From: Pelosinus fermentans JBW45
GTDB lineage: Bacteria; Bacillota; Negativicutes; DSM-13327
Direction of reading: 5' to 3'
DNA length: 64,000 bases
Assembly: GCF_000271665.2 (NCBI RefSeq)
Contig: NZ_CP010978.1
Coordinates: 1,272,501-1,336,500, forward strand
Under the pieces are notes generated by a model that was given only the letters and a program-made list of their open reading frames with translations, did not search any database and was not told where the DNA came from. Below, in pieces: positions 28,518 through 43,660 of this stretch. Within the stretch, counting starts at the first letter, position 1; every line of letters begins with the position of its first letter. Position numbers and translations under genes: made by a program.

Positions 28518-29543
28518 ATGAGAGTCATACCAGTATGGGAGGCGGAAGGTACAGTATTGTGTCATGACATTACAGAAATTATTCCAGGTAAAGTAGCTGG
28601 GCGAGCATTTAAGAAAGGTCATGTTGTAAAAAAAGAAGATATATCCAAACTATTAAAATTGGGAAAAGAGCATCTTTATGTTTGGGAAGTAAATCAGAAT
28701 GTTATACATGAAAATGATGCAGCTATGAGAATTGCTAAAGCCGTAGCAGGTCCGGGAATTATTTTAACAGCACCAATAGAAGGCAAGGTGGAACTAAAAG
28801 CGCAAATCCCTGGGATGTTAAAAATTAATCTCGATGCCTTGGAAGAATTGAATGATATTAATGAAGTGATTGTTGCTTCTATCCATTCCCATCAGTTAGT
28901 TTCTGTTGGAGAAATAGTTGCAGGCTGTCGCGTGGTGCCGCTGGTTATCGAAGCTAACAAAATAAAAAATGTGGAAAATATCGGTAGATTATCCTTTCCA
29001 GTCATGGAAATCAAACCTCTTAAACCTCTTAAAGTAGGAATTGTTACAACAGGCAGTGAGGTCTATCATGGACGTATTCAAGATCAATTTGGTCCCGTTT
29101 TAGATAGGAAAATAACCGCATTGGGCAGCCGGGTGGTAAGGCAGATCATTGTTGACGATGCTATAGACATGATTGATAATGCCATCAAAACATTAATACA
29201 AGATGGAGCTGAGATGATCATAACGACTGGGGGGATGTCAGTAGATCCCGATGATGTAACCCCAGCAGGAATTCGCTCGGCTGGGGGACGAGTTGTTGCT
29301 TATGGAGCGCCAGTACTTCCAGGTTCCATGTTTATGCTGGCCTATATTGGCAGCATTCCAGTATTAGGCTTGCCAGGTTGTGTAATGTATCGTAAAACTA
29401 CTATTTTTGATTTAGTCATTCCTCGCATTCTAGCAGGAGACGAGCTTAACCGCAAAGACATTGTACGTTTAGCTCATGGTGGATTATGTACCAATTGTGA
29501 TCCTTGTCGATATCCTCACTGTGCTTTTGGTAAAGGTAACTAA
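28518..29543 (+). CDS. MoeA/MogA-like molybdopterin-binding protein
   Basis: A 341-residue protein with a divergent N-terminal region (residues 1-165) and a MoCF/MogA-type domain (about 170-300) carrying GIVTTGSEVYHGR and TTGGMSVDPDDVTP, the molybdopterin-binding signature. The tail has a four-Cys cluster, GLCTNCDPCRYPHCAFGKG, probably binding metal. Proteins like this occur beside xanthine dehydrogenase-type enzymes and are thought to help molybdate insertion or cofactor handling. First gene behind the sigma-54 promoter, 90 bases before the aldehyde oxidoreductase gene. It is shorter than true MoeA (about 400 residues). Confidence 0.82.
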   Translation: MRVIPVWEAEGTVLCHDITEIIPGKVAGRAFKKGHVVKKEDISKLLKLGKEHLYVWEVNQNVIHENDAAMRIAKAVAGPGIILTAPIEGKVELKAQIPGMLKINLDALEELNDINEVIVASIHSHQLVSVGEIVAGCRVVPLVIEANKIKNVENIGRLSFPVMEIKPLKPLKVGIVTTGSEVYHGRIQDQFGPVLDRKITALGSRVVRQIIVDDAIDMIDNAIKTLIQDGAEMIITTGGMSVDPDDVTPAGIRSAGGRVVAYGAPVLPGSMFMLAYIGSIPVLGLPGCVMYRKTTIFDLVIPRILAGDELNRKDIVRLAHGGLCTNCDPCRYPHCAFGKGN

Positions 29544-29630
29544 GATTAGTATTAGACGTTTTTGATGATAAGGGATTTTAGGGGGGATATTTCCTCTGAA
29601 ATAATATGAAATCATAAAGGAGAGTAGGAA

Positions 29631-32369
29631 ATGCAAAAGAAGGTATTGCATGTTAATGGACTACCGCGAGTTTTAATCGTAGATCCAGAAACCAGTCTGG
29701 CAAGTGTACTTCGAGAGCAGCTCTTATTAACGGGCTGCAAAGTAGGCTGCAATCAGGGGCAATGTGGCACTTGTTCGATTATCATGGATGGAAAAGTAGT
29801 TCGCTCCTGCATTGTCAAGATGAAGAGAGTACCGGATGAAGCGAACATTACTACCATTGAAGGTTTGGCTAAACCAGAGAATCTCCATCCCTTGCAGGTA
29901 GCTTGGATGGCATACGGCTGTGCCCAATGTGGTTTCTGCAGCCCCGGGTTCATTCTATCGGCTAAAGTATTGCTGGATACTAACTCGGCTCCGACGAGAG
30001 AAGATGTCCGTGAGTGGTTTCAAAAGAACCGTAATGCATGTCGATGTACAGGCTACAAGCCATTGGTTGATGCTGTTATGGCAGCAGCTAAGGTAATGCG
30101 GGGCGAAATGCTCAAAGAAGATTTACTATATAAACCTGTTGGCAATAAAATTTATGGAACGACATATCATCGTCCTTCTGCTTTGCGTAAAGTTACTGGT
30201 ACTTGGGATTATGGTGCTGATGTTGCGCTGCAAATGCCCCCAGGTACATTGCGAATGGCTTTGGTGCAAGCGGAAGTATCCCATGCCAATATTATGGGTA
30301 TTGATACTGTAGAAGCTGAAAATATGCCCGGAGTATATAAGGTAATTACTCATAAAGATGTTAAAGGTAAAAATCGCATTACCGGTTTGATTACGTTTCC
30401 AACCAATAAAGGGGATGGCTGGGATCGGCCCATTCTTTGCGATGAAAAAGTATTCCAGTTTGGCGATGCTATCGCAATTATTTGCGCTGATACGGAAGAA
30501 CATGCTAAAGCTGCAGCCAAGAAAGTTAAAGTTGATTTAGAAATTCTGCCCTCTTACATGAGTGCACCTGCGGCAATGGCTGCGGATGCGATTGAAATAC
30601 ATCCCGGCGTACCTAATATTTATTTTGAACAGGGTATTATAAAAGGCGAAGATACAGAGCCCATTATGAAACAATCAGATGTTGTAACTGTAGAAGTGGA
30701 TACCTATTGTAGTCGTCAGCCCCATCTGCCTCTTGAACCGGATTGTGGATGTGCTTATTTTGATGAAGAAGGTCGTTTGACCATTCATTCTAAGAGTATC
30801 GGCCTTCATTTACATCATGCCATGATTGTTGCTGGGATTGGCATTGAACCAGAAAAATGCCGCATTGTTCAAAACCCTACCGGCGGGACCTTTGGCTACA
30901 AATTCAGCCCGACCATTGAAGCATTGCTTGGTGTTGCCTGCATGGCAACAGGTAAACCTGTTTCCCTTAATTTCACCATGTATCAGAATATTACGTATAC
31001 GGGTAAGCGATCTCCTGGCTTTGTTAAATGTAAGCTTGCTGCTGATAAAACAGGGAAACTTCTTGCTATGGAAACGGACTGGTTTATTGATCACGGTCCT
31101 TATTCTGAGTTCGGTGATTTGCTGACTCTGCGTCAAGCTCAATTTACTGGTGCTGGCTATGATATACCCCGGATACGGGGCAAAGGTCGTACCGTCTGCA
31201 CCAATCATGCCTGGGGATCGGCATTTCGTGGATATGGTTCGCCTCAAGCCTTTTTAGCCTCTGAAATAGCTATGGATGAACTGGCCGAAAAACTTGGCTT
31301 AGATCCATTAGAACTGCGCTTTAAGAATATTTACCGTCCAGGAGCTACTACACCTACAGGGCAAGTGCCTGAAGTATTTTGCTTTGAAGACATGATTAAT
31401 ACTCTCCGTCCTTTATGGGAAGAAGCTAAAAAGCGGTGTAAAGAGCTCTCAACGTCGGAGAAAAAACGTGGCGTGGGTTTATCTCTTGGTATTTACGGCT
31501 GTGGTCTTGATGGTCCAGATAGTTCAGAAGCTTGGGTCGAATTGACAAAGAACGGCATAACCGTCGGGGATTCTTGGCAAGATCATGGGCAAGGTGCAGA
31601 TATCGGAACCTTAAGCCATGCTCATGAAACTCTGCGTCCTCTTGGTATTAAAGCAGAGCAAATCAAGCTTGTGATGAACGACACTGCCTTTACCCCTAAC
31701 AGTGGACCGTCTGGCGGCAGCCGATCCAACGTCATGACTGGTAATGCGATAAAAGTTGCTTGTGAAATGCTATTAAATGCTATGCGTAAGCCGGACGGTA
31801 CTTACCGCTCCTATGATGAAATGGTAGCCGAAAATCTTCCTCTACACTACGATGGTAAATGGACAGCATCGATGTGTACTGACTGTGACCCAGTTACGGG
31901 TCAAGGAAAACCTTTCCCTATCTACATGTATGAACTATTTATGCCTGAAGTGGAAGTTGACATGAAGACAGGAAAGGCTAAAGTCGTTAAGTTTACCACT
32001 GTTGCTGACATGGGAACGATTACGAATAAAACAGCTTGTGATGGCCAGATATATGGTGGTTTAGCGCAAGGTATTGGTCTTGCTCTTACAGAAGACTTCG
32101 AAGATCTTAAGAAACACACAAACCTGGTTAATTGTGGTTTGCCCTTCATTTATGATGTACCAGATGATATTCAAATTATTTATAATATTACTCCTCGTGA
32201 GCATGGACCTCACGGTGCAGCAGGTGCAGGCGAAGGTCCCCTGAGTGCTCCTCATCCTGCGATTCTTAATGCCATTTATAATGCATGTGGTGTACGTATT
32301 TATGCAGTTCCTGCACTGCCCGAAAAAATAAAAGCCGGACTGGCAGCACTATCCACAAGGAAGAAATAA
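29631..32369 (+). CDS. mop: Aldehyde oxidoreductase, molybdenum hydroxylase (Mop type)
   Basis: A 912-residue fusion like Desulfovibrio gigas MOP (907 aa). The N-terminus has the plant-type [2Fe-2S] domain (GCKVGCNQGQCGTCS) and the second [2Fe-2S] helical domain (GCAQCGFCSPG, then ACRCTGYKPLVDA). The molybdopterin domains follow with no FAD domain in between. The catalytic Glu near the molybdenum is in GAGEGPLSAPH. It would oxidise aldehydes to acids with water, passing electrons out through the clusters. With no FAD domain it needs a partner; the Fe-S flavoprotein encoded next is the candidate. No signal peptide is seen, so it is cytoplasmic. Confidence 0.95.
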   Translation: MQKKVLHVNGLPRVLIVDPETSLASVLREQLLLTGCKVGCNQGQCGTCSIIMDGKVVRSCIVKMKRVPDEANITTIEGLAKPENLHPLQVAWMAYGCAQCGFCSPGFILSAKVLLDTNSAPTREDVREWFQKNRNACRCTGYKPLVDAVMAAAKVMRGEMLKEDLLYKPVGNKIYGTTYHRPSALRKVTGTWDYGADVALQMPPGTLRMALVQAEVSHANIMGIDTVEAENMPGVYKVITHKDVKGKNRITGLITFPTNKGDGWDRPILCDEKVFQFGDAIAIICADTEEHAKAAAKKVKVDLEILPSYMSAPAAMAADAIEIHPGVPNIYFEQGIIKGEDTEPIMKQSDVVTVEVDTYCSRQPHLPLEPDCGCAYFDEEGRLTIHSKSIGLHLHHAMIVAGIGIEPEKCRIVQNPTGGTFGYKFSPTIEALLGVACMATGKPVSLNFTMYQNITYTGKRSPGFVKCKLAADKTGKLLAMETDWFIDHGPYSEFGDLLTLRQAQFTGAGYDIPRIRGKGRTVCTNHAWGSAFRGYGSPQAFLASEIAMDELAEKLGLDPLELRFKNIYRPGATTPTGQVPEVFCFEDMINTLRPLWEEAKKRCKELSTSEKKRGVGLSLGIYGCGLDGPDSSEAWVELTKNGITVGDSWQDHGQGADIGTLSHAHETLRPLGIKAEQIKLVMNDTAFTPNSGPSGGSRSNVMTGNAIKVACEMLLNAMRKPDGTYRSYDEMVAENLPLHYDGKWTASMCTDCDPVTGQGKPFPIYMYELFMPEVEVDMKTGKAKVVKFTTVADMGTITNKTACDGQIYGGLAQGIGLALTEDFEDLKKHTNLVNCGLPFIYDVPDDIQIIYNITPREHGPHGAAGAGEGPLSAPHPAILNAIYNACGVRIYAVPALPEKIKAGLAALSTRKK

Positions 32370-32389
32370 GAGTTTCTATATAAATGTAA

Positions 32390-32428
32390 CCTAAAACGAA
32401 TTGAAACGTAAATTCAATTCGTTTTAGG
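32390..32428 (+). terminator. Hairpin after the aldehyde oxidoreductase gene
   Basis: CCTAAAACGAATTGA and TCAATTCGTTTTAGG form a perfect 15-bp stem. There is no T-run after it, so it may act as an mRNA 3' stabiliser that sets Mop expression above the downstream genes. Confidence 0.6.
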
Positions 32429-32480
32429 CTTTCCAATATACGAATTTTATTGGCGTATATCTAAAGGAAAGGGAGATAGT

Positions 32481-34817
32481 ATGGAACAAAAAGCCTTAAA
32501 AGAAAGAGAACAGCAATGTATTCAAGAGCAGCCTCCAGGATGTACAGCTGCCTGCCCAGTTCATGTTGATGTAAGAGGCATGGTTGCTGCTATTCAAAAA
32601 GAGGACTATAAAGCTGGAGGCCAATTATTATATAACATGGTACCCTTTCCGCGAATCATTAGTAGAATTTGTGATCAACCCTGTCAGCAGGCCTGTAAGC
32701 GGCAAGAAATAGATGAGGCTATTGCAGTGAATGAGCTGGAAAAAAGCTGCGTGGATAATAGTAAGGAATTGACTCTTAAAATCACACCAATGCCGCCTAA
32801 GGATAAAACCATTGCAATTATTGGAGCTGGATTAAGTGGCTTAACAGCGGCAGTTGAACTAGGCAAAAAGGGCTATAATGTTGTGATTTTTGAGGCGAAA
32901 AAATTAGTAGGCGGGAGTATATGGGACATTTCCGAACATCGGCTGCCTAGGCAGAATATTGCTGAAGATTTTGCCATATTAAAAAGAATACCATTAGAAA
33001 TTAACTTACATGTTATCGTGAATAATCATAAGAACTCAAAGATGTCGTTAGATCATATAAGTGCAGCTTTTGATGCTGTTTATTTAGCGACAGGCTGCAT
33101 AGAAGCAAATACCCATTATTGGGGACTTGCTCTTGACGTAGGTGGAAGGATTGCCATTCATCCTGCAACGCTGGCAACGAGCGTGCCCAACGTTTTTGCT
33201 GGGGGCAGTCTTTACTTGGGACCTGATCGTAAGTCACCAATAACCTCAATCTCTCATGGGAAAATAGCTGCAAATTCAATCGATCGTTTCTTACAAAATG
33301 CTTCTCTCACGGCCAGTCGGGAAAAGGAAGGACCTTTTACTTCTTTACTTTATACAAATATTGCTGGAGTAGAACCGCAAACGAAGGTACGAAGTGCTGA
33401 TCCCAATCAAGGCTATACGACAGAAGAAGCAGTAAAGGAGGCAAAGCGCTGCCTATTATGTGAGTGTTTGGAGTGTGTTAAGGTTTGTGAATATCTAGCC
33501 CATTTTCACGCTTATCCAAAGCGGTATGTACGGGAAGTTTATAATAATTTATCCATTGTGATGGGCGTTCACCATGCTAATAAAATGATTAATGCCTGTA
33601 ATTTATGCGGTTTATGTGAGCAGGTTTGCCCGGGAAATTTGAATATGGGAGAAATTTGCCAAGAAGCAAGACGGATTATGGTCAAAAAAGGGAAAATGCC
33701 ACCAAGAGTCCATGATTTTGCTTTACGAGACATGCAGTTTAGTACCAGTGAGAAGTTTGCATTTAGCAGACATCAACCAGGTTTTGCATCCAGCAGTACC
33801 GTATTCTTTCCCGGTTGCCAGCTCAGTGCCTCTTCGCCGGAACATGTAAAAAGCATGTACCAATTCCTTTGCAAAAAAATAACTGATGGCGTGGGTTTAA
33901 TGCTGGGCTGTTGCGGTATTCCAGCTGACTGGGCAGGACAAGAAAATTTATTTAAAGAAACAATTAAGGCCATCGAAGATAGTTGGCGGAAGTTGGGTTC
34001 TCCCAGGGTCATCACAGGCTGTCCCACTTGCTATAGTATTTTTAAGCGTGAATGGCCTTCCATGGATGTTGAGTCAATATGGACAGTCTTAGATAAAATT
34101 GGACTACCAGATCAAAAGAAAGAGCCGCATACGTCATTAAAATTGGTGGTACATGATACTTGCACCACAAGGCATGAAGCTGCCCTACAGCAAAGTATAC
34201 GAAAAATTTTGCATACACTTGGGCACCAAGTGGAGGAACTGGAAAACAGTAATGAATTTACAGAGTGTTGTGGTTATGGAGGTCTTATGCTGTTTGCTAA
34301 TAAAGAAATTGCACATAAGATGATAAAAAAACGCAGTCAACAGAGTGAAAACGATTTTCTTACTTACTGTGCAATGTGCCGTGATAATTTTGCCAGTCAA
34401 GGAAAGCGGAGCTATCACCTTTTAGACTTGATTTTTCCAACAAGGCAGCAAGATGTGGCTAGCAAAAAAGGTCCCGGCTATTCTGAGCGACAGGAGAATA
34501 GGGCAAGGCTCAAAAGGACGCTGCAAAAAGAGGTGTGGGGAGAATTGGCAGACAAAGAACAGTGCAACGTTAAATTGATCATTTCAGAAAAGGTACAGCA
34601 GGTCTTGGAAGAACTGATGATTCTTGATAGTGATATTATAGCTGTGATTTCACATGCAGAACATACTGGTAATAAATTTAAAAACATGGAAAATAACTCT
34701 TATATTGCATCTTTTAAACCTGCCAGTGTAACGTATTGGGTAGAGTATTCTCCTCAGGAAGATAGCTTCCTGGTGCATAATGCCTATAGCCACAGATTAG
34801 AGATAAAAGGATCATGA
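32481..34817 (+). CDS. Fe-S flavoprotein: GltD-like plus HdrB-like (CCG) fusion
   Basis: A 778-residue multidomain redox protein. Order: GltD-type N-terminal cluster domain (PPGCTAACPVHVDVRG, CDQPCQQACKR), an FAD-binding Rossmann region from residue about 112 (IIGAGLSGLTAA) ending with VPNVFAGGSLYLG, Cys-rich ferredoxin-like segments (CLLCECLECVKVC, CNLCGLCEQVCPG), and two CCG domains as in heterodisulfide reductase HdrB (LGCCGIPADW, CPTCYSIF, ECCGYGGL). The NAD(P)-binding part seems shortened. The last 80 residues form an extra domain (VTYWVEY, HNAYSHRLEI). It probably takes electrons from Mop and passes them to a pyridine nucleotide or a thiol carrier. Confidence 0.85.
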   Translation: MEQKALKEREQQCIQEQPPGCTAACPVHVDVRGMVAAIQKEDYKAGGQLLYNMVPFPRIISRICDQPCQQACKRQEIDEAIAVNELEKSCVDNSKELTLKITPMPPKDKTIAIIGAGLSGLTAAVELGKKGYNVVIFEAKKLVGGSIWDISEHRLPRQNIAEDFAILKRIPLEINLHVIVNNHKNSKMSLDHISAAFDAVYLATGCIEANTHYWGLALDVGGRIAIHPATLATSVPNVFAGGSLYLGPDRKSPITSISHGKIAANSIDRFLQNASLTASREKEGPFTSLLYTNIAGVEPQTKVRSADPNQGYTTEEAVKEAKRCLLCECLECVKVCEYLAHFHAYPKRYVREVYNNLSIVMGVHHANKMINACNLCGLCEQVCPGNLNMGEICQEARRIMVKKGKMPPRVHDFALRDMQFSTSEKFAFSRHQPGFASSSTVFFPGCQLSASSPEHVKSMYQFLCKKITDGVGLMLGCCGIPADWAGQENLFKETIKAIEDSWRKLGSPRVITGCPTCYSIFKREWPSMDVESIWTVLDKIGLPDQKKEPHTSLKLVVHDTCTTRHEAALQQSIRKILHTLGHQVEELENSNEFTECCGYGGLMLFANKEIAHKMIKKRSQQSENDFLTYCAMCRDNFASQGKRSYHLLDLIFPTRQQDVASKKGPGYSERQENRARLKRTLQKEVWGELADKEQCNVKLIISEKVQQVLEELMILDSDIIAVISHAEHTGNKFKNMENNSYIASFKPASVTYWVEYSPQEDSFLVHNAYSHRLEIKGS

Positions 34818-34826
34818 GGTGACTTT

Positions 34827-35027
34827 ATGGATAAGCAAGTTCAAAAAATCATTATATGTAATACTTGCAATATTCCTCTCGCCTTAGGAAAGGTAACATT
34901 ATCCTACTTGGGGAATGAGTTCCCTGTTGAACTTTTTAAATGCCCGCAATGCGGGCTGGTATATATTCCTGAAGAGTTAGCAAAGGGGAAGATGGATCAG
35001 GTGGAAAAAGCATTGGAGGACAAATGA
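34827..35027 (+). CDS. Rubredoxin-like zinc-ribbon protein (DVU_1557-like)
   Basis: A 66-residue protein with two CxxC knuckles (CNTC at 11-14, CPQC around 40-43) that would bind one zinc or iron. The short spacing and aromatic residues fit a rubredoxin-like redox or structural ribbon. It follows the flavoprotein by 9 bases and overlaps the methyltransferase start (ATGA), so it is made with them. I recall the name DVU_1557 family redox protein for such products in Mop clusters; the match is from memory. Confidence 0.7.
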   Translation: MDKQVQKIIICNTCNIPLALGKVTLSYLGNEFPVELFKCPQCGLVYIPEELAKGKMDQVEKALEDK

Positions 35028-35731
35028 TGGGCCAACATAATGATCGTATTACTACAGATCTGCATGAATGTAGTTCCAATGTATTTGAAAATAAGATTTT
35101 TGCTAACATGGCCGAAGGAGCTCGCCCAGGGGGATTAGAATTAACACGGAGAATTATTGATTACTGTAATTTTGACCATCGTTCTATAGTTGTTGATATG
35201 GGGTGTGGCACGGGAACTACTGTAGAGTATCTACGGGATGTACGGGGAGTGTATGCCCTGGGTGTCGACTTGTCTACTCCATTATTGCAACAGGGAAAAG
35301 AACGCAAGCCTGATTTACGGCTCATTCAGTCACCGGGTGCAGACATGCCTTTTGCTGATCATTCTATTGATGGTGTTTTGGCTGAGTGTAGTTTATCAGT
35401 TATGCCTGATATTTCTAAGGTTTTAATTGAAATCAATCGTATTCTTGTTTCTGGAGGAAAGCTTGCCATAACAGATCTTTATATCCGAGAAGGGGACTCT
35501 GATGTACCCAACATCATGACTCATAGTGAGCTTTTTCAGACATTGCAGAAGCATGATTTTAATATACTCATCTTTGAGGATCAGACGGTTTTTCTAAGAG
35601 AATTTGTCGCAAGTTTTATTATGGAGCATGGATCAATAGAAGGACTCTGGGAATGTATGGGGAAAAAGAAACTGAATAATAAAATACCTGGGTTAGGCTA
35701 CTATTTGCTGATAGCAGAAAAAGGATCGTGA
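35024..35731 (+). CDS. SAM-dependent methyltransferase (DVU_1556-like)
   Basis: A 235-residue class I methyltransferase. The SAM motif is VDMGCGTGTTVEYL at about residue 57, followed by the acidic LGVDLS at the second strand and the post-I region ECSLSVM. The sequence ahead of the SAM motif (RPGGLELTRRIIDYC) looks specific to members in Mop-type clusters. The substrate is unknown; a pathway intermediate or cofactor is possible. Translation is coupled to its neighbours on both sides by overlapping stop/start codons. Confidence 0.8.
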   Translation: MMGQHNDRITTDLHECSSNVFENKIFANMAEGARPGGLELTRRIIDYCNFDHRSIVVDMGCGTGTTVEYLRDVRGVYALGVDLSTPLLQQGKERKPDLRLIQSPGADMPFADHSIDGVLAECSLSVMPDISKVLIEINRILVSGGKLAITDLYIREGDSDVPNIMTHSELFQTLQKHDFNILIFEDQTVFLREFVASFIMEHGSIEGLWECMGKKKLNNKIPGLGYYLLIAEKGS

Positions 35732-35745
35732 GAAAGAGGTGCAAT

Positions 35746-35934
35746 TTGAATACTCAAACATGTCCCCGATGTAAGAATGAGCTGATAGATACTCTTCTTT
35801 ATAAATGTGTGCGCTGTTTTACCGTATATTGCAGGGAATGTACAGAAACCAGTGAAGGACGCCTTTGTCCGAATTGTAAAATGTCTCAGCGCATGTTACT
35901 GCCTTTAGAGCAATCAAAGATAAAAAAAGAATAA
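35746..35934 (+). CDS. Small double zinc-ribbon protein
   Basis: A 62-residue protein (from TTG 35746) with four CxxC pairs: CPRC, CVRC, CREC and CPNC, plus a single Cys, enough for two zinc or Fe-S sites. The GTG at 35728, which overlaps the methyltransferase stop, is an alternative start giving 68 residues; GAGGTG lies close before the TTG. The function is unknown. It closes the first part of the operon, before the divergent gene. Confidence 0.65.
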   Translation: MNTQTCPRCKNELIDTLLYKCVRCFTVYCRECTETSEGRLCPNCKMSQRMLLPLEQSKIKKE

Positions 35935-35954
35935 ACATCTCACTTGAGATGTTT
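35933..35954 (+). terminator. Hairpin after the zinc-ribbon gene
   Basis: AAACATCTCA and TGAGATGTTT form a 10-bp stem with a two-base loop overlapping the stop codon. No T-run. Confidence 0.5.
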
Positions 35955-35970
35955 AACATGCCGAGCAGGA

Positions 35971-36423: not shown

Positions 36424-36555
36424 TGTATCAACCTCCCAAAAAATAAATTCGTTGGCACTCATCTATATGGTAATCGAATCCTAATGCAATTTCAAGATAA
36501 ATATGGTGAAGATTCAGTGGAGGATGATTTACCTTCAGGATAAAGGAGGATTTAT

Positions 36556-37338
36556 ATGATATTTAGTAGCCTGCTTTCGGCTCAAAATAGTGGCAGAACC
36601 GTTGACTGCTTCACTGTTATTGCTAGTAGTTTTGCTAGTGACATTGGAAAAATGCTGATCATCCATCAAGACGGAAGAGTAGAAAGTCAGTTGGAAGGGA
36701 TGATTGGGCAGCATGTGCTAGATACGGTGAAAAATCTGCCATGGAGTAAAGCCATGACACTTTCCCTTGAAGATCAATCAGGAGAAAAGTATCGGATTTT
36801 TTGGGATAGGATGACAACTAAATACCATGCGATTGTATTTGGTGGCGGGCATATAAGTCAACCCTTAGTCCAAATGCTTATCCAATTGGATTTTATTGTG
36901 ACAATAGTGGATGATCGCCCTGAATTTGCAAATCAGGCCAGATTTCCAGGAGCTCATACTATCATTTGCGAAAACTTCCACCAAGCTTTTAAGAAATTGG
37001 TCATAAGCAGTGATACCGCTGTGATTATTGTAACTCGCGGGCATAGATATGATCTGGAATGTTTGCGTGCTACCATGAATAGTAAAGCTCGATATTTGGG
37101 GATGATTGGCAGCAAGAAACGAGTAAAAGAAGTATTTGCTGTTTTGCGGGAGGAAGGAAGAGCAGAGGACCTTGAAGGGCGTCTAAAGGCTCCGATTGGT
37201 CTTGACATTCGAGCAGAAACGCCCGTAGAAATAGCTGTGAGTATTGTTGCCGAAGTAATTGGAGTTTTTCGCGGCGGTGGTTCTGGTCGATCATTAAGTG
37301 GATGCAGGGAGGGAGACCATGGACTCAGAAATCCTTAA
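36556..37338 (+). CDS. XdhC-like protein, Rossmann part
   Basis: A 260-residue protein with the XdhC C-terminal Rossmann domain (VFGGGHISQPLVQML at about residue 94, then TRGHRYDLECLRATM, YLGMIGSKKR and APIGLDIRAETPVEIAVSI). XdhC binds molybdenum cofactor and loads it, after sulfuration, into xanthine-dehydrogenase-type enzymes. The usual N-terminal CoxI motif is absent here and is found instead in the next gene, so the protein is split and its order reversed. The C-terminus overlaps the next gene by 20 bases. Confidence 0.87.
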   Translation: MIFSSLLSAQNSGRTVDCFTVIASSFASDIGKMLIIHQDGRVESQLEGMIGQHVLDTVKNLPWSKAMTLSLEDQSGEKYRIFWDRMTTKYHAIVFGGGHISQPLVQMLIQLDFIVTIVDDRPEFANQARFPGAHTIICENFHQAFKKLVISSDTAVIIVTRGHRYDLECLRATMNSKARYLGMIGSKKRVKEVFAVLREEGRAEDLEGRLKAPIGLDIRAETPVEIAVSIVAEVIGVFRGGGSGRSLSGCREGDHGLRNP

Positions 37339-37630
37339 CCGAATTTGCGAAATACAGCATGAGGGTGAAAAAGCAGTCTTAGTCACTATTGTTGAAACTC
37401 GTGGATCAACGCCTCGCAAGGCAGGAAGTAAAATGCTGATTTTACCAGATGGTACCTCTTATGGAACCATTGGCGGCGGATGCGCAGAAGGGGAGGTTAG
37501 GCGCCAAGCGTTAACGGCACTGGATGTGAATTGCTCCAGATTATATACAGTGAGCATGCTAAATGATATGGCTGCAGACGAGGGAATGGTATGTGGGGGT
37601 ATCATGGAGGTATTTATTCAAATCATCTGA
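37319..37630 (+). CDS. XdhC/CoxI N-terminal-domain protein
   Basis: A 103-residue protein made of the XdhC_CoxI N-terminal domain only: VETRGSTPRKAGSKML, then GTIGGGCAEGEV and MVCGGIMEVFI. In single-chain XdhC this part precedes the Rossmann domain. Start ATG 37319 follows GGGAGGGAG inside the end of the upstream gene, so the two are translationally coupled and should form one complex. It probably takes part in cofactor sulfuration or insertion into Mop. Confidence 0.87.
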   Translation: MDSEILNRICEIQHEGEKAVLVTIVETRGSTPRKAGSKMLILPDGTSYGTIGGGCAEGEVRRQALTALDVNCSRLYTVSMLNDMAADEGMVCGGIMEVFIQII

Positions 37631-37660
37631 GGAAAAGAAGTAAAGCGCAGGTGAAATAGG

Positions 37661-38788
37661 ATGTGGAATAAAGATAAAATGGGCGCAGTATTATTGGCAG
37701 CGGGCTATTCATCTCGTATGGTGAAATGTAAGTCGCTGCTGCCTTTAGGTGGTTTACGAGTGATTGAAAGAGGAATCAATACATTTAGACAAGCCGGTAT
37801 AATGGATATCACAGTGGTGGTGGGGCATCGAGCTGATAAATTGATACCTATATTGGATGAACTAAAAGTGTCCTATGTTTTTAATGAAAAGTATAGCGAG
37901 GGAATGTTCTCTTCTATTGTCAAGGGAGTGCAGTCCCTGCCGGCAGAAACCAAAGCCTTTTTCCTGCTGCCGTCAGATATGCCTTTAGTAAAAAGTCATA
38001 CGGTGAGACTGTTGGGGCGGGCTTTTAATAAGGTTAAGGCAGATATTATTTACCCTGTCTTCCAGAAACATCGGGGGCATCCTCCTCTAATTAGTGCAAA
38101 TTGCTTTCCTGAAATTTTGTTGGGTAATACAAGTGGAGGCTTGCGTCAAATTCTAGAAAGGCGTGAGGGGAATGCATATGAAGTAGAGGTATTTGATGAA
38201 GGCATATTGTTGGATATTGATACTCACGAGGATTATCAGAAGATTATGACAGGATATTATCGTCGGGATATTCCGACGCAGGCTGAGTGTGAAGCAATTT
38301 TTAAAAAAATGAATGTGTCAGAAGCGATTGTGAATCATGGCAGGATGGTAGCAGAGATCGCAAGGAATTTGGCTCTTCGTTTGAATGAAATCGGTCTAAA
38401 TATTGATGTTCACGCTGTTACAGCTGCTGGAAAGCTGCATGATTTAGCTAAAGGGAAGCCTAATCATGCTCAAATTGGTGGTAGAATACTAAAAAAATAT
38501 GGATATTATAAGGTGGCACAGATCGTTGCTGCACATACTGATATGGAACTGAATGAAAAAGCGTTGCCAGATGAGGCGGCAGTAGTATATTTAGCAGATA
38601 AGCTGGTGAAAGGAGGCGGCATTGTGTCCATTGATGAACGGTTTTCTGCTTCTATGGACGAATATGCAGCAAGTGCAGAGGCGGTTGCTGTTATTAGAGA
38701 GCGCCGCTTGCGAGCTGAAAAGATAGAACAAACTGTTGAACAGCTGCTAGGCATTAGTCTAGTAATGGCAGCTAGAGACTTATGTTGA
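37661..38788 (+). CDS. MocA-like nucleotidyltransferase fused to an HD domain
   Basis: A 375-residue fusion. Residues 1-200 are a GT-A nucleotidyltransferase like MocA or MobA (GAVLLAAGYSSRM, then KSLLPLGG, LLPSDMPLV and HRGHPPLI), which attaches CMP or GMP to molybdopterin. Residues about 225-340 are an HD phosphohydrolase domain (VNHGRMVAEIA, GKLHDLAKG, AAHTDME). Molybdenum hydroxylases of this type carry the cytosine dinucleotide, so a CTP role is likely. The HD part might recycle the cofactor or a by-product. I recall the label DVU_1551 family for this architecture. Confidence 0.85.
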   Translation: MWNKDKMGAVLLAAGYSSRMVKCKSLLPLGGLRVIERGINTFRQAGIMDITVVVGHRADKLIPILDELKVSYVFNEKYSEGMFSSIVKGVQSLPAETKAFFLLPSDMPLVKSHTVRLLGRAFNKVKADIIYPVFQKHRGHPPLISANCFPEILLGNTSGGLRQILERREGNAYEVEVFDEGILLDIDTHEDYQKIMTGYYRRDIPTQAECEAIFKKMNVSEAIVNHGRMVAEIARNLALRLNEIGLNIDVHAVTAAGKLHDLAKGKPNHAQIGGRILKKYGYYKVAQIVAAHTDMELNEKALPDEAAVVYLADKLVKGGGIVSIDERFSASMDEYAASAEAVAVIRERRLRAEKIEQTVEQLLGISLVMAARDLC

Positions 38789-38820
38789 ATAAAAGTTAAG
38801 CTTAGAAAGGCGGCACAGAT

Positions 38821-40203
38821 ATGCAGGATAAGGAAACTATATTAGGAATAACGGAAAGTCTTTGCCCGGAGTGCCTGCAGCGTATAAAGGCAAAAAGAGT
38901 TGAAGTAAGTCATAATGTTTACCTAAAGAAAACATGTAAAGATCACGGGGATTTTTGCACTGTAATTTGGCGGGGACAGCCATCTTATACATCCTGGTCT
39001 GTTGCCAAGCTTCCTTCTAGGCCGCCTGTATGTGCAACCAATATTAGCCAAGGCTGCCCTTTTGATTGCGGTTTGTGCCCAGACCATCGTCAGCACACAT
39101 GCTGTGTTCTGCTTGAAGTTACTAAGCGGTGTAATTTGCACTGTCCTATATGTTTTGCCACATCAGGTTCCGAGGAAAGTGATCCAGATAGAACGACAAT
39201 TGAAAACTGGTATCGCCTATTATTAAAGAGTGGCGGTCCCTATAATATTCAGTTATCTGGAGGTGAGCCGACCTTAAGGGATGACCTGCCAGAAATAATA
39301 GCCTCAGGACGAAGTTTAGGATATGATTTTATTCAAGTAAATACCAATGGCCTAAGGCTGGCAAGGGACTATAGCTACGTTAAAAGGCTAAAAGAAGCTG
39401 GATTATCCTGTGTATTTTTACAGTTTGACGGAACCAATGATGAAATTTATGAGAAGCTACGAGGAACGGCCTTGCTGGCAGAAAAGCAGGCGGCTATTAC
39501 TAATTGTGCTAAGCTGCAGTTAGGGGTAGTTCTTGTGCCGACATTAGTTCCTGGCGTGAATACACAAAATATCGGATCCATTATCCAATATGCTGTTGAA
39601 CAAATGCCGACAGTACGCGGCGTTCATTTTCAGCCTGTCAGCTATTTTGGCAGATATCCTCAAGAGCCTTCGGATAGAGAACGGATTACCATTCCAGAGG
39701 TTATAAACAAGATTGTAAAGCAGACCGGAGGAAAATTTCAGATAGAAGATTTTCGGCCCCCTAGGGGAGAAAATGCATATTGTTCTTTTCATGGCAATTT
39801 TGTATTAATGAATAATGGAGAATTAAAAGCGTGGTCAAATACAGGTTCAAAGGGATGCTGCCAGCCCCAAGTAGCAGCTGTGGAAGCAAGGAAAGCTCGC
39901 ACGTTTGTTGCTAAACGCTGGTCTGCGCCCCAAAAAGCAGAGAGGAGAGAGACAGACAATAAAGAGGAGAAATATGGTGACAACATTAACGTTGGCAGTA
40001 TGGATGCTTTTTTAGATCGTGTGGAAAAGTATTCCTTCTGCATATCGGGCATGGCATTTCAGGATGTCTGGAATTTGGATCTGGATCGTTTAAGAGAGTG
40101 TTTCATTCATGTGGTCAGCCCAGACAGCCGAATAATCCCCTTCTGTGCTTATAACTTAACGGATAAACAGGGGAATCCTCTTTATCGTCCCTTAAAGAGG
40201 TGA
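38821..40203 (+). CDS. Radical SAM enzyme, TrsS/MJ0619/Tes-like
   Basis: A 460-residue radical SAM protein. The [4Fe-4S] SAM motif is TKRCNLHCPICFA, preceded by GCPFDCGLCPDHRQHTCC, an extra Cys-rich motif typical of MJ0619 (pterin methylase) and tetraether-synthase relatives. An N-terminal zinc-like pair (CPEC) and the ELKAWSNTGSKGCC segment near residue 340 are further features. Related proteins in Mop clusters are called TrsS and some are selenoproteins; this copy has only Cys and no in-frame UGA. It may alkylate a pterin or lipid-like precursor. A poorly conserved, charged loop (residues about 365-395) looks like a spacer. Confidence 0.85.
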   Translation: MQDKETILGITESLCPECLQRIKAKRVEVSHNVYLKKTCKDHGDFCTVIWRGQPSYTSWSVAKLPSRPPVCATNISQGCPFDCGLCPDHRQHTCCVLLEVTKRCNLHCPICFATSGSEESDPDRTTIENWYRLLLKSGGPYNIQLSGGEPTLRDDLPEIIASGRSLGYDFIQVNTNGLRLARDYSYVKRLKEAGLSCVFLQFDGTNDEIYEKLRGTALLAEKQAAITNCAKLQLGVVLVPTLVPGVNTQNIGSIIQYAVEQMPTVRGVHFQPVSYFGRYPQEPSDRERITIPEVINKIVKQTGGKFQIEDFRPPRGENAYCSFHGNFVLMNNGELKAWSNTGSKGCCQPQVAAVEARKARTFVAKRWSAPQKAERRETDNKEEKYGDNINVGSMDAFLDRVEKYSFCISGMAFQDVWNLDLDRLRECFIHVVSPDSRIIPFCAYNLTDKQGNPLYRPLKR

Positions 40204-40212
40204 CTGTAAGTA

Positions 40213-41547
40213 ATGAGGGCAACAGTACAACAAAACAAATTATTTGAGGCTTGGAACGCAAAAAAAATGGGAGTGGGCTCGAATTTAACCCGAGAGCAAA
40301 TTGCTCACTATCAATTGCATAAAGTACGGCAAACTATCAAGTTGGCCTACGGGAACAGTCCTTTTTACCGTAAGCTATTAAAAAATTTTGTCAGCAAAGA
40401 AATAAATTGTATGGAAGATCTGCAGCAATTTCCTTTTACTACTGCGGATCATATCAGAGAACAGGCACGGCAGTTTCTCTGTGTATCCCAAAGTGATATC
40501 AGCCGGATTGTGACATTAAATAGTTCCGGGACAACAGGTGAGGCCAAACGCATATATTTTACCGATTTTGATCAAGAACTAACGATTGATTTCTTTCAAC
40601 AAGGCATGTCTACTTTTTTGGAAAGGGGAGATCGGGTTCTGATTTTGCTGCCAGGTGAACGTGTCGGCAGTGTTGGTGATTTACTGATTAAGGCACTGGA
40701 GCGGGCAGGAATGGTACCTATTCTTCATGGTCTTGTGCAAAATATTCCTAAAACAGTAGAATTTATGACACAGGCAAGAATTGACTCCTTAGTTGGAATT
40801 CCCACGCAAGTACTAGCATTAGCTCGCTATGGTGAAATGACAAAGAAAACAATTCAGCTTAAGAGCGCACTGCTCAGCACGGATCATGTGCCTGACGCGA
40901 TTATCCAAGAATTGGTTCGCGTGTGGGGCTGTCAGGTATTTGAACACTATGGCATGACTGAAATGGGTTTGGGGGGCGGCCTAGACTGTGAAACCCATAA
41001 GGGATATCATCTACGGGAAGCGGATTTGTATTTCGAAATCGTTGATCAAAGAGGAATACCAGTACCTGATGGGCAGGAAGGGGAAGTTGTTTTTACTACG
41101 CTGACTAGACAGGGAATGCCGTTTATTCGTTATCGGACAGGGGATCTATCAAGGTTTCTTCCTGATCCCTGTTCTTGTGGTACCATACTTAAAAGATTAG
41201 AACGGATCATCAAAAGAAAGGATGGTCTGATTTTTCTCAAAAGTGATACATTTTTCACCATGTCGGATCTGGATGAAAAAATATTTGCGGTGGATAGAGT
41301 AATTGATTATACAGTTACTGTTGATAGCCTGCAGCAGGCAACACAATTGACTGTTTCTGTTTGGTTATTAGGTCAGTCTAATGAGGCTGCTGAGCGTGCA
41401 CTTTGGGATGCACTGTATCGTGTGCCAGCGCTAGTTCAGGCAAGACAAGCGGGGCAGCTCTCCGTAAGTATAAAAATAATTTACAGTAAAGATACTTTTT
41501 TCCCCAGTGCCTCTAAAAGAAGAATTATGGAGTTGAAAGACAGCTGA
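40213..41547 (+). CDS. AMP-forming CoA ligase-like enzyme (DVU_1553-like)
   Basis: A 444-residue ANL-superfamily protein like phenylacetate-CoA ligases. ATP loop: LNSSGTTGEAKRIYFT; A5 motif: EHYGMTEMG; A7 motif: YRTGDLSRF; and a Cys pair (PDPCSCGTILKR) as in phenylacetate-CoA ligases. It would adenylate a carboxylate, perhaps the acid made by Mop or a pathway precursor. It overlaps the phosphatase gene by one base (stop/start TGATGG). Confidence 0.85.
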   Translation: MRATVQQNKLFEAWNAKKMGVGSNLTREQIAHYQLHKVRQTIKLAYGNSPFYRKLLKNFVSKEINCMEDLQQFPFTTADHIREQARQFLCVSQSDISRIVTLNSSGTTGEAKRIYFTDFDQELTIDFFQQGMSTFLERGDRVLILLPGERVGSVGDLLIKALERAGMVPILHGLVQNIPKTVEFMTQARIDSLVGIPTQVLALARYGEMTKKTIQLKSALLSTDHVPDAIIQELVRVWGCQVFEHYGMTEMGLGGGLDCETHKGYHLREADLYFEIVDQRGIPVPDGQEGEVVFTTLTRQGMPFIRYRTGDLSRFLPDPCSCGTILKRLERIIKRKDGLIFLKSDTFFTMSDLDEKIFAVDRVIDYTVTVDSLQQATQLTVSVWLLGQSNEAAERALWDALYRVPALVQARQAGQLSVSIKIIYSKDTFFPSASKRRIMELKDS

Positions 41548-42158
41548 TGGAAAACAGGACGGTGTATTTGATTAGGCATGGAAAAATTAAGTTTGAAGAT
41601 AATCAGCGAAGGTATATTGGCCAACTCGATTTGCCATTAAGCCTGGAAGGCATACAGCAAGCTCAATGTTTAGAAACAATCTTAAAAGATATAGACATTG
41701 GTAAGGTATACTGTAGTGATCTTTTGCGTTCTCAGCAGACAGCTCAGATAATAGCTGGTAACAAAGCTATTCCAGTTATTGTGCGAAAAGATCTTAGGGA
41801 GATACATATGGGAAATTGGGAGGGGCGTACATTCTCCCATATTGTGAAGGAATATCCGGAGGAGTTTAAGGCACGTGGAGCTGATATTGGCTATTATCGA
41901 GTGGCAGGGGGAGAAAGTTTTGCTGATTGTTACAAGCGTGTGATTGACGCGTTTCATGAGATTATGAATTCTTCGTCAGGTACTATTTTGCTTGTCGGGC
42001 ATGCTGGAGTCAATCGGTTGCTGCTGTGCTATGTACTGGGAATGCCTTTGGCAAACCTTTTTAGAATGAATCAAGATTATGGTTCTTTGAATATCATCGC
42101 TACAAGGAAATCTGGTTGGCAGGTAAAGTTAGTAAATGAAACAACCTGTAGAAGATAA
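41547..42158 (+). CDS. Histidine phosphatase family protein (CobC/PhoE-like)
   Basis: A 203-residue phosphatase. The catalytic LIRHGKIKF is at the N-terminus, with DLREIHMGNWEGR in the middle and GHAGVNRLLLCYVLG carrying the second His. Cobalamin-pathway alpha-ribazole phosphatases look alike, but the operon has no other cobalamin gene. In this setting it probably removes a phosphate from a pathway intermediate. It starts one base inside the previous stop. Confidence 0.83.
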   Translation: MENRTVYLIRHGKIKFEDNQRRYIGQLDLPLSLEGIQQAQCLETILKDIDIGKVYCSDLLRSQQTAQIIAGNKAIPVIVRKDLREIHMGNWEGRTFSHIVKEYPEEFKARGADIGYYRVAGGESFADCYKRVIDAFHEIMNSSSGTILLVGHAGVNRLLLCYVLGMPLANLFRMNQDYGSLNIIATRKSGWQVKLVNETTCRR

Positions 42159-42187
42159 GGATGCTTTTTTGGAAGGGGGAATTTTTA

Positions 42188-42628
42188 ATGTCAGGGGATG
42201 TAGCTGCTCGTATAACTAAGCTGCATATGCAAGGATTTCACTGTAGTCAGATTATGATCATGTTAGGGCTAGAAGAGCAGGAAAAAAACAATCCTGATTT
42301 AATACGAGCAATGACGGGATTAGCTGGTGGATTAGGCTTTAGCGGCAAAAACTGTGGAACCTTAACGGGGGCGGTTTGTTTATTAGGCTTATATGGAGGT
42401 CGGGGCGAGCTGGAAGAGCGGGAAAATCATCAATTAAATACGATGATTCAGGAATTGGTAGTATGGTTTGAAGAAACATTTGCCAAAGAGTATGGCGGCA
42501 TTGATTGTCAGCACATTATGAATAATGATCCTTGGAATCGTTTGACCCGCTGCCCGGATGTAGTGATAAAGACATATTTAAAAGCTACGGAAATTCTTGA
42601 GGATAATGGCTTCCTCTCAGGTTCCTAA
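42188..42628 (+). CDS. C-GCAxxG-C-C family protein (DVU_1555-like)
   Basis: A 146-residue redox-type protein with the family pattern: one Cys in GFHCSQ, then KNCGTLTGAVCLLG (the CG-x4-G-x2-C variant of GCAxxG), Cys in GIDCQHI and a last Cys in LTRCPDV. The Cys probably bind an Fe-S cluster or form disulfides. ATG 42188 follows GGAAGGGGGA; the in-frame ATG at 42161 lacks a site. Function unknown. Confidence 0.83.
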   Translation: MSGDVAARITKLHMQGFHCSQIMIMLGLEEQEKNNPDLIRAMTGLAGGLGFSGKNCGTLTGAVCLLGLYGGRGELEERENHQLNTMIQELVVWFEETFAKEYGGIDCQHIMNNDPWNRLTRCPDVVIKTYLKATEILEDNGFLSGS

Positions 42629-42679
42629 CAATAGAAAGGTTAGAACCGTTAAAATTCAACGGTGAGAGGAGTGAAAAAG

Positions 42680-43660
42680 ATGCAGGACAGTTTTGGTCGT
42701 ATCATTGACTATTTGCGAATTTCCATTACGGATCGTTGTAATTTTCGCTGCAGCTATTGTATGCCCCCGGAAGGAGTTCCTTTACTTGAACACTCTGAAA
42801 TATTGTCTTACGAAGAGTTGCTTCGTGTCATTCGGATATTGGGACAATATGGCGTGAATAAGATCCGTATTACTGGTGGTGAGCCATTAATTCGCAAGGG
42901 AATATTGGATTTCATTCGTGCTATTAGAGAAATAGAAACGGTTACAGATTTGGCAATGACAACAAACGGCAGCTTACTTGCAGATAGAGCTTATCAGCTT
43001 AAAAAGGCTGGTTTAGATCGAGTAAATATCAGCATTGACACTCTTAATCCAAAAGAATTTTCCCGTATTACAGGTGGCGGCCAATTGTCAGATGTACTAC
43101 AAGGAATTGAAAGTGCTATGAATGCTGGCTTGACTCCCGTTAAGCTAAATGTAGTTGTGACGGAAGTTTTTTCCATGGAAGATCTGTCTTATTTCATAAA
43201 ACAAACCTATGAGTTTCCTATTGCAGTACGATTTATTGAATACATGCCTGTTGGACGCTGCGGTGTGAAAGCAGGATATAGTATTAAGGCAATAAAAAAC
43301 AGCATTAATACAGCAGGGTATGGTATGTTGGAAAAAGCGTTCAGTATAAAGGGAAATGGACCCGCCCATTATTATCGACTGCCACGGGCAATGGGCGTAT
43401 TTGGCTTTATTACGCCTATGACAGAGCATTTTTGTCATACCTGCAACCGCATTCGTTTGACAGCCGATGGGAAAATTAAACCTTGTTTACTTGCAAACAA
43501 AGAATTTGATATTAAGCATGCCTTACGCAGTGGTACGAGTGACAGTAAAGTCGCTGAGCTGTTTATAAAAGCGCTGCAAGGGAAGCCCCTTCATCATATT
43601 TGGGGCAATGAGCGAGAAGGGACGAATTTGATACGAAATATGTCTCAAGTTGGTGGTTAA
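42680..43660 (+). CDS. moaA: GTP 3',8-cyclase MoaA
   Basis: A 326-residue radical SAM enzyme for the first step of molybdopterin synthesis. SAM cluster motif DRCNFRCSYCMPPEG, the GTP-side cluster CHTCNRIRL with the third Cys in KPCLL, ITGGEP, and the essential C-terminal Gly-Gly (QVGG) are all present. Length is near E. coli MoaA (329). ATG 42680 follows GAGAGGAG. Last gene of the Mop cluster, so cofactor supply is tied to the oxidoreductase operon. MoaC, MoaD and MoaE are not in the window. Confidence 0.95.
   Translation: MQDSFGRIIDYLRISITDRCNFRCSYCMPPEGVPLLEHSEILSYEELLRVIRILGQYGVNKIRITGGEPLIRKGILDFIRAIREIETVTDLAMTTNGSLLADRAYQLKKAGLDRVNISIDTLNPKEFSRITGGGQLSDVLQGIESAMNAGLTPVKLNVVVTEVFSMEDLSYFIKQTYEFPIAVRFIEYMPVGRCGVKAGYSIKAIKNSINTAGYGMLEKAFSIKGNGPAHYYRLPRAMGVFGFITPMTEHFCHTCNRIRLTADGKIKPCLLANKEFDIKHALRSGTSDSKVAELFIKALQGKPLHHIWGNEREGTNLIRNMSQVGG

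Follow-up and report, generated by a model that had tools for sequence, protein, structure and literature searches.

What would a radical S-adenosylmethionine (SAM) enzyme, an AMP-forming ligase and a methyltransferase contribute to a molybdenum-dependent aldehyde oxidoreductase? This question is raised by an array of genes at positions 28518-43660 of a 64,000-nucleotide stretch of the Pelosinus fermentans JBW45 genome (5.38 Mb in one contig, NZ_CP010978.1), hereafter the window, in which the genes of these enzymes accompany mop, the gene of a molybdopterin aldehyde oxidoreductase of the Desulfovibrio gigas type. A preliminary description, made from the sequence, had proposed that the ligase, the radical SAM enzyme (TrsS), the methyltransferase and a phosphatase form a separate pathway, which either modifies the pterin of the molybdenum cofactor or makes a small-molecule partner of Mop. 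We report here that the three enzymes travel with mop and with an Fe-S flavoprotein, Diclu, in distant bacteria, and that in some genomes they are found apart from the cofactor genes. Of the two alternatives, the small molecule is favoured and the pterin modification is weakened.

Gene content and conservation of the cassette

All genes named in the preliminary description were confirmed where it had placed them. Ten window proteins exceeded curated NCBIfam cut-offs, eight of them through models of the DVU_155x/TrsS set, and these family names bore out the proposed match to DVU1551-DVU1559 of Desulfovibrio. The genes of the array are as follows; counts refer to 40 TrsS loci for which 21 kb or more was fetched (full-flank loci).

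28518-29543, plus strand: MoeA-like molybdopterin-binding protein (PF00994, 86 bits; in 17/40 full-flank loci)
29631-32369, plus strand: Mop, molybdopterin aldehyde oxidoreductase of the D. gigas type (NF045668, 1664 against a cut-off of 1100)
32481-34817, plus strand: Diclu, Fe-S flavoprotein (NF045663, 1048 against 530)
34827-35027, plus strand: zinc ribbon of the DVU1557 family, 66 amino acids (DVU_1557, NF045645, 101 against 60)
35024-35731, plus strand: SAM methyltransferase of the DVU1556 family (NF045667, 212 against 155)
36556-37338, plus strand: C-terminal (Rossmann) half of XdhC (PF13478, 144 bits; NF045664 positions 170-342)
37298-37630, plus strand: N-terminal half of XdhC (PF02625, 90 bits; NF045664 positions 1-100)
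37661-38788, plus strand: MocA-like nucleotidyltransferase (NTP transferase)-HD fusion of the DVU1551 family (NF045665, 454 against 315)
38821-40203, plus strand: TrsS, radical SAM enzyme with the Tes fold (NF045646, 704 against 490)
40213-41547, plus strand: AMP-forming, PaaK-like ligase of the DVU1553 family (NF045666, 474 against 300)
41547-42158, plus strand: CobC-like histidine phosphatase (TIGR03162, 173 against 163; in 26/40 full-flank loci)
42161-42628, plus strand: C-GCAxxG-C-C protein of the DVU1555 family (NF045669, 172 against 103)
42662-43660, plus strand: MoaA, GTP 3',8-cyclase (TIGR02666, 357 against 284; in 4/40 full-flank loci)

Conservation was examined in the best 80 of 553 confirmed TrsS matches, the lowest of which was 48% identical to the query, that is, in close relatives only. 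According to the record titles of named genomes, the 80 loci belong to Bacillota (29), Thermodesulfobacteriota (19), Chloroflexota (12), Pseudomonadota (7), Myxococcota (6), Acidobacteriota (2) and Campylobacterota (2), with three unassigned. The closest TrsS relatives among the matches listed carry Pelosinus, Selenomonadales and Sporomusa names, and nearer records may be missing from them. In the 40 full-flank loci we found Diclu in 40, Mop, DVU1557 and the C-GCAxxG-C-C protein in 39 each, the ligase in 38, the methyltransferase in 37, and XdhC and the NTP transferase-HD fusion in 31 each; a single locus (L076) was Mop-less. Ligase, radical SAM and methyltransferase genes thus stood with mop, not mostly apart from it, and did so in all seven named phyla, as the suggested conservation across phyla had implied. 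In the whole set Mop lay in the fetched stretch of 56 of the 80 loci, part of the other 24 being short; five (L087, L089, L096, L099 and L144) showed no Mop despite some 9-10 kb of sequence upstream of TrsS.

The same association was seen when whole genomes were searched. Among 219 genomes of the window's phylum, 15 carried Mop, 13 TrsS and 11 the ligase above the respective cut-offs, and 12 carried both Mop and TrsS; because this co-occurrence gave a Fisher p of 3e-16, the grouping is not due to chance. All 11 ligase genomes carried TrsS. Mop alone was found in G072 (with TrsS just under the cut-off), G083 and G207, and TrsS alone in G076, where a Mop fragment lies on the same contig. In a family of 199 genomes around a Desulfovibrio metagenome-assembled genome (MAG), presumably the Desulfovibrionaceae, Mop was present in 133, TrsS (E <= 1e-120) in 124 and both in 120. 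Nine of the 17 single-gene exceptions were explained on inspection and one more was cut by a contig end. Among the 13 genomes with Mop and no TrsS at this threshold, five (G313, G315, G330, G342 and G389) do have TrsS by our own profile in the fetched stretch, two (G388 and G410) hold pieces of it, and the remaining six are G257, G354, G366 and G419, with Mop at or near contig edges, and G411 and G282. Among the four converse cases, Mop lies at contig edges in G393 and G427 and the cassette of G405 is contig-cut, which leaves only G231 without Mop. DVU1557 exceeded its cut-off in 25 of 71 chosen genomes and in none of the 32 controls, in which neither Mop nor TrsS reached its cut-off. In a tree of 68 Mop rows, made by a quick method, with rows not known to lack TrsS scored as having it and therefore indicative only, the five TrsS-less rows (three from G207, two from G282) fell among TrsS-bearing ones and four state changes were needed.

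Mop and its cofactor

Window Mop matched the sequence of D. gigas Mop (1sij/1vlb) with 1354 bits over nearly its full length. The position of D. gigas Glu869, the catalytic glutamate, is kept and the MoCoBD domains are present, as are cysteines 40, 45, 48, 60 and 100, 103, 137, 139, which we take to be the ligands of the two [2Fe-2S] clusters. Window Mop, which comes from another phylum than the D. gigas enzyme, is predicted to oxidise an aldehyde with molybdopterin cytosine dinucleotide (MCD) as its cofactor.

We then considered the locus of the crystallised enzyme itself. In one genome (G245) the Mop segment was 100% identical to the D. gigas enzyme over 309 residues, from which we infer that this genome is D. 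gigas. Beside this mop we found the genes of the MoeA-like protein, Diclu, DVU1557, the methyltransferase, the C-GCAxxG-C-C protein, TrsS, the ligase, XdhC and the phosphatase; the NTP transferase-HD fusion was not found at that locus with our own profile. The order MoeA-like, Mop, Diclu, DVU1557, methyltransferase is the same in the window. The window differs from the DVU_1551-DVU_1559 set in that XdhC and the NTP transferase stand 5' of TrsS and the C-GCAxxG-C-C gene follows the phosphatase, in its split and reversed XdhC, in having MoaA within the array, and in the insertion of an additional zinc ribbon and a 163-amino-acid gene.

D. gigas Mop, the first crystal structure of the xanthine oxidase family, is described in the sections available of PMC10223205 as an MCD enzyme, its metal centres and pterin rings being very well defined at 1.28 A; in a competent form an equatorial oxo group replaces the sulfido ligand. 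The same sections still call the physiological partner putative and name flavodoxin for this role, with an electron chain via flavodoxin reconstituted in vitro, and they do not discuss the genes next to mop. Since the cassette adjoins a mop identical to that of an enzyme described with ordinary MCD, the proposed modification of the pterin is weakened. A change of the pterin by the cassette should have shown in that structure; a change lost on purification, or one of the Mo ligand, is conceivable.

The pathway can be separated from mop

Clostridium ragsdalei has two cassettes (L198 and L199) with largely complementary losses. In cassette A Mop and the ligase are intact, TrsS is a remnant interrupted by stops, and neither the methyltransferase nor the C-GCAxxG-C-C protein was found. 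In cassette B Mop is spread over two frames, TrsS, the methyltransferase and the C-GCAxxG-C-C protein are full-length, and no ligase was found on the 10.6 kb contig. This reciprocal loss suggests that the pathway acts in trans, via a shared and diffusible product. A Desulfosporosinus MAG holds TrsS remnants in two cassettes and its sole TrsS match at E <= 1e-90 elsewhere, fused to DUF5714.

Other genomes have one side without the other. G207 carries four mop genes, with DVU1557, Mop and Diclu together on one contig; neither a TrsS match at E <= 1e-40 nor a ligase reaching its cut-off was found in this genome (a draft of 310 contigs, 96% complete). Conversely, two TrsS-like genes, a ligase and DUF5714 are present in G231, where Mop gave no match at E <= 1e-100, and G566 has the same TrsS-ligase module on a 12 kb contig from which Mop is absent, this contig being the part of G566 searched for Mop. 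The claim of a separate pathway is therefore retained for its first three members, which C. ragsdalei, G231 and G207 separate from the cofactor genes. The first member of the G566 module is a dihydrolipoyl-dehydrogenase-type gene; such proteins in G231 and G566 scored 475 and 477 on the dihydrolipoyl dehydrogenase model, whose cut-off is 409. The G231 gene lies on another contig than TrsS, together with the gene of a protein that reaches 98 of the 155 bits required by the DVU1556 methyltransferase model. Enzymes of the dihydrolipoyl dehydrogenase type act on dithiols, and HdrB acts on a disulfide; because of this we propose that the product is perhaps a dithiol, on the strength of two genomes and one fold.

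Further TrsS neighbourhoods were noted. At C. ragsdalei L096 (8213-18522) TrsS lies among a CobW-type GTPase, an SBP_bac_11 protein, a QRPTase-like protein, FmdE and a methyltransferase. TrsS is fused to DUF5714 (PF18978) in L087 (9950-12172), and TrsS-TrsS'-ligase-DUF5714 modules occur in L288 (250-6253) and L235 (6640-11328), one of them headed by a dihydrolipoyl-dehydrogenase-type gene. Homology of DUF5714 to the C-GCAxxG-C-C protein was considered and dropped, profile comparison giving a probability of 0.3%. More distant radical SAM relatives adjoin, as judged by eye, prolipoprotein diacylglyceryl transferase-like genes in L069 and L071 and fatty-acid synthesis-like genes in L070; these three are possibly lipid enzymes.

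TrsS, the ligase and the methyltransferase

The TrsS model (mean predicted local distance difference test score, pLDDT, 87) aligned over its whole chain with Tes (GDGT-MAS, MJ0619; 7tol/7tom), with Z 45.9 and a root-mean-square deviation of 1.9 over 396 residues against 7tom; the next fold was that of MoaA (Z 22). In the N-terminal part compared, TrsS also keeps the rubredoxin-like (C-x2-C-x20-C-x2-H) and N-cluster ligand spacing of Tes. It differs from Tes in scoring below the cut-off of the Tes model (NF045702, 366 against 450), and the sequence alignment of the two breaks at TrsS profile positions 312-381 against Tes 338-444, before the C-terminal cluster domain. Because of this break and the score under the cut-off, TrsS probably acts on a substrate other than that of Tes. 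Compared with the class D pterin methylase HMPTM, TrsS had matches only to PF23545, an N-terminal zinc ribbon, and to the radical SAM domain in general.

The earlier statement that MJ0619 relatives methylate pterins is outdated. In the part of PMC9433317 available, MJ0619 is a lipid-coupling enzyme that performs sp3-sp3 coupling, Tes forms a C-S bond intermediate on an auxiliary cluster, and the pterin-methylase activity could not be corroborated. We therefore dropped pterin methylation by analogy with MJ0619 as a premise.

The ligase carries the adenylate-forming motifs SSGTTG, YGMTE and YRTGD and matched PaaK (4r1l) with 134 bits. While it resembles PaaK and F390 synthetase in these respects, it constitutes an NCBIfam family of its own and stayed far below the cut-offs of both (140 against 646 for PaaK, 76 against 459 for F390 synthetase). 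Across 104 rows of the methyltransferase, E121 was invariant (100%) and C122 nearly so (99%).

Diclu and DVU1557 as candidate partners of Mop

Diclu combines Fer4_20, an FAD domain, an HdrC-like ferredoxin and an HdrB-like double CCG region; no Pfam match was listed for its C-terminal stretch. In its model (mean pLDDT 90), residues 15-273 aligned over 252 residues with 46-472 of 5jfc_L, the GltD/NfnB-like part; about 170 residues of 5jfc_L, where the NAD(P) domain sits, were unmatched. In structural alignments of the model with NfnB, GltD and thioredoxin reductase, the NAD(P)-binding domain had no aligned counterpart, which is not proof of its absence. Residues 438-665 resemble HdrB (8rwn_B, Z 17.0, 222 aligned) and 438-654 LutA (Z 17.9), and the later part also aligns with EtfD. 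All ten CCG cysteines (C446, C477, C478, C514, C517; C561, C596, C597, C630, C633) were invariant in 38 rows. Diclu thus has the two complete CCG sets and the fold of an HdrB-type protein, a fold that LutA and EtfD have too. As in HdrABC and NfnB/GltD, a GltD/NfnB-type Fe-S and FAD part is joined to an HdrC-like ferredoxin and HdrB-like CCG domains; unlike these, Diclu is one chain with no NAD(P) domain seen and, in some genomes, with DVU1557 appended. We therefore read Diclu as a single-chain, Hdr-like electron acceptor of Mop that apparently lacks an NAD(P) domain.

The gene order points in the same direction. Mop and Diclu genes were at most 500 bases apart in 50 of the 55 loci holding both, and Diclu and DVU1557 genes in 64 of 64. 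In six genomes (L217-L220, L237 and L316) a single open frame covers both Diclu and DVU1557; the linker could be read in five of them and is free of methionine in each. The two would there be made as one chain. All 110 distinct DVU1557 sequences stopped exactly after E-[D/E]-K, as against ten other cassette proteins in which no residue exceeded 62% in the last eight and the ends, except that of the MoeA-like protein, varied widely. Copies found later, two in G207 and one in G388, also end in E-D-K. A free C-terminus so exactly kept suggests that it fits a pocket or serves as an attachment site.

The DVU1557 family is labelled a redox protein in NCBIfam. We also considered DVU1557 as a precursor of the ribosomally synthesised and post-translationally modified peptide type. 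A cofactor precursor of this type (the mycofactocin kind) would be expected always to be accompanied by its radical SAM maturase; G207 has two DVU1557 copies with the same end and no TrsS match at E <= 1e-40, which lowered this candidate.

Proposed mechanism and alternative explanations

From these observations we infer that the proteins form a complex, how electrons pass between them and what the pathway makes. Mop would oxidise an aldehyde and pass the electrons via its two [2Fe-2S] clusters to Diclu, of which DVU1557 would be a C-terminal domain or subunit; as judged from gene order, shared frames and fold, Diclu and not flavodoxin would be the main physiological partner. From what is known of their families, MoaA, the MocA-HD fusion, the MoeA-like protein and the two XdhC halves would make and load ordinary MCD. 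TrsS, the ligase and the methyltransferase, aided by the phosphatase and the C-GCAxxG-C-C protein, would leave the pterin ring unaltered and make a diffusible small molecule. This would most likely be a low-molecular-weight thiol/disulfide carrier of the coenzyme M/coenzyme B or lipoate kind, the weakest step of the scheme, and the HdrB-like half of Diclu would reduce or re-oxidise it. Taken as a whole (aldehyde oxidation by Mop-Diclu, ordinary MCD supply and a TrsS pathway for a diffusible, perhaps dithiol, redox partner), the scheme is tentative and somewhat more likely to be wrong in some part than right throughout. In a more specific version, the product of TrsS, the DVU1553 ligase and the DVU1556 methyltransferase would be a new dithiol or disulfide coenzyme, widespread in anaerobic bacteria and used by the single-chain Hdr-like flavoprotein as electron acceptor of Mop; Diclu-DVU1557, and not flavodoxin, would be the natural partner of the D. 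gigas enzyme and would dock by the invariant E-D-K. We consider this version rather unlikely.

Several observations weigh against the general scheme. LutA and EtfD, which match Diclu as well as HdrB does, are not known as low-molecular-weight disulfide reductases. Dihydrolipoyl dehydrogenases are common, and that of G231 is on another contig than TrsS. In C. ragsdalei, L096 provides a further full-length TrsS, so that cassette B is not the sole possible source, and the missing ligase may lie beyond the end of the cassette B contig at 10.6 kb. The TrsS product is apparently not needed everywhere, G207 having four Mops, Diclu and DVU1557 and apparently no TrsS. Nor is the complex universal: the drafts G282 and G411 have Mop with no DVU1557 match, and in G282 Diclu was not seen within 20 kb either. 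No Hdr-like partner is in view in the TrsS contexts L096 and L087. A TrsS relative below the cut-off occurs in four of 398 genomes of the phylum and in all four adjoins a Mo enzyme of the dimethyl sulfoxide (DMSO) reductase family (L068 9144-10463, L072 5746-7110, L066 823-2124 and L280 8788-10134); the search profile was built from L068, L072 and L066, so only L280 is independent. These relatives, three of which were tested and fell below the TrsS and Tes cut-offs, may form an unnamed family. Finally, the in vitro electron chain from D. gigas Mop via flavodoxin (PMC10223205) speaks for a different partner.

The last-mentioned relatives bear on a different explanation, that TrsS, the ligase and the methyltransferase alter the molybdopterin cofactor itself, at the pterin, the nucleotide or the Mo ligand. 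With them, this radical SAM family would be tied to two unrelated Mo-enzyme families, Mop and the DMSO-reductase type, again with L280 alone as independent evidence; MoaA is the second fold for the TrsS model, and genes that we read as ModA- and ModD-like (Pfam SBP_bac_11 and QRPTase) and FmdE lie near the further TrsS in L096. However, four of seven further sub-cut-off TrsS relatives (three in G186, one in G105, within the first 219 genomes) had no Mo enzyme seen adjacent, G207 keeps four Mops with no TrsS match, and in G231 TrsS and the ligase are present although Mop gave no match. With the MCD described at 1.28 A in the available sections on the enzyme of the D. gigas locus (PMC10223205), an altered cofactor appears improbable. 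We give the same low standing to maturation of a protein of the complex, such as the DVU1557 C-terminus or a site in Diclu, for which the ligase would activate a carboxylate for attachment. The DVU1557 tail, constant while other cassette proteins vary, would suit this, as would a DVU1557 gene adjoining TrsS in G525 with no Mop in the fetched stretch. Yet both G207 copies keep E-D-K in a genome without a TrsS match, G566 and G231 have TrsS and ligase with no DVU1557 over cut-off, and the conserved tail may merely dock.

A catabolic route would convert alcohol to aldehyde, aldehyde to acid by Mop and acid to acyl-CoA by the ligase, and the substrate skeleton would be the target of TrsS and the methyltransferase. 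It would account for a PaaK-like ligase and for an iron alcohol dehydrogenase recurring in seven of 80 loci (by clustering, with the family assigned by eye); in the part of PMC10920352 available, a proteomic table for D. vulgaris also places DVU_1559 under ethanol metabolism. Against it, a similar set occurs in sulfate reducers, acetogens, Chloroflexota and others, whereas catabolic gene sets tend to vary. In addition, no ligase over cut-off accompanies Mop in G207, G083, G072 and G030 (in the last two it falls just below), and G231 has the ligase without Mop. We consider this route less likely still than the two explanations above. We regard as least probable a pathway for metal handling, yielding a metal or metalloid ligand or an alkylated product. 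DUF5714, fused to TrsS in L087 and near it in L288, L235, L294 and L056, is partly like the NCBIfam metal-binding selenoprotein MbdU (78 bits against a cut-off of 600), CobW-type GTPases lie near TrsS in L096, L290 and L291, and the methyltransferase is weakly similar to the ArsM model (52 bits); but none of these genes is core, each being seen in at most five of the loci fetched by then.

Regulation and other genes of the array

A regulator gene and a promoter site precede the array, and two genes without a family assignment lie within it:

26010-28088, plus strand: sigma-54-dependent regulator, DhaR/PrdR-like (GAF, PAS, AAA and Fis helix-turn-helix domains; DhaR, 444 against a cut-off of 551)
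28291-28305, plus strand: -24/-12 promoter TGGCACACTATTTGC, a perfect match about 210 bases 5' of the first gene
35728-35934, plus strand: second zinc ribbon, 68 amino acids (no family above cut-off; in 3/40 full-flank loci)
35971-36462, minus strand: 163-amino-acid protein, absent from the preliminary description (no family above cut-off; in 3/40 full-flank loci)

The -24/-12 site, placed between the activator gene and the first cassette gene, is the sole match without mismatch in the window; with up to two mismatches the pattern gave 65 matches against 52 expected. A DhaR-profile gene was present in 15 of the 40 full-flank loci, a count that may include other sigma-54 activators. The cassette is probably under sigma-54 control, with the DhaR/PrdR-like regulator as its probable activator. 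An Rfam scan of 23000-46000 at gathering score returned no match.

Two genes that overlap by 41 bases (36556-37630) encode XdhC, and the order of its domains is reversed; separately the halves score 191 and 96 bits on NF045664, neither of which reaches the cut-off of 350. H226, H260, D261, H292 and D313 of the NTP transferase-HD fusion were kept in 100% of 62 rows. Across 110 rows of the C-GCAxxG-C-C protein, C28, C65 and C116 were invariant (100%) and C131 nearly so (99%). Genes of the 68-amino-acid ribbon and the 163-amino-acid protein adjoin in several loci (L075, L077, L125 and L283) and are on opposite strands in the window. Their profiles were built from one and two sequences, so that the counts above may be low; the ribbon is probably lineage-specific and neither gene is probably core.

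Relation to previous work and significance

The cassette set is already known and covered by curated NCBIfam models. In the part available of a 2026 review (PMC13188914), TrsS appears under the entry 'Radical SAM selenoprotein TrsS NF045646', with Haft and Tolstoy 2025 as its source. No account of the pathway product was found in the literature on DVU1551-DVU1559 and TrsS, outside Haft and Tolstoy 2025, which was not covered; in the passages covered, the genes DVU1551-DVU1559 were named only in abundance tables. New here are Diclu as an apparent single-chain Hdr-like enzyme, the shared frames of Diclu and DVU1557, the DVU1557 tail, the complementary cassettes of C. ragsdalei, and two TrsS-ligase modules with dihydrolipoyl-dehydrogenase-type genes and no Mop nearby.

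The MCD reported for D. gigas Mop in the available description tilts the question of pterin or small molecule to one side. Neighbourhood, shared frames and the Hdr-like fold give a concrete candidate partner for D. gigas Mop, testable in genetically tractable Desulfovibrio. The TrsS pathway points to a small molecule in acetogens, sulfate reducers and Chloroflexota, and if its product were found, anaerobic metabolism would gain a coenzyme or a new modification.

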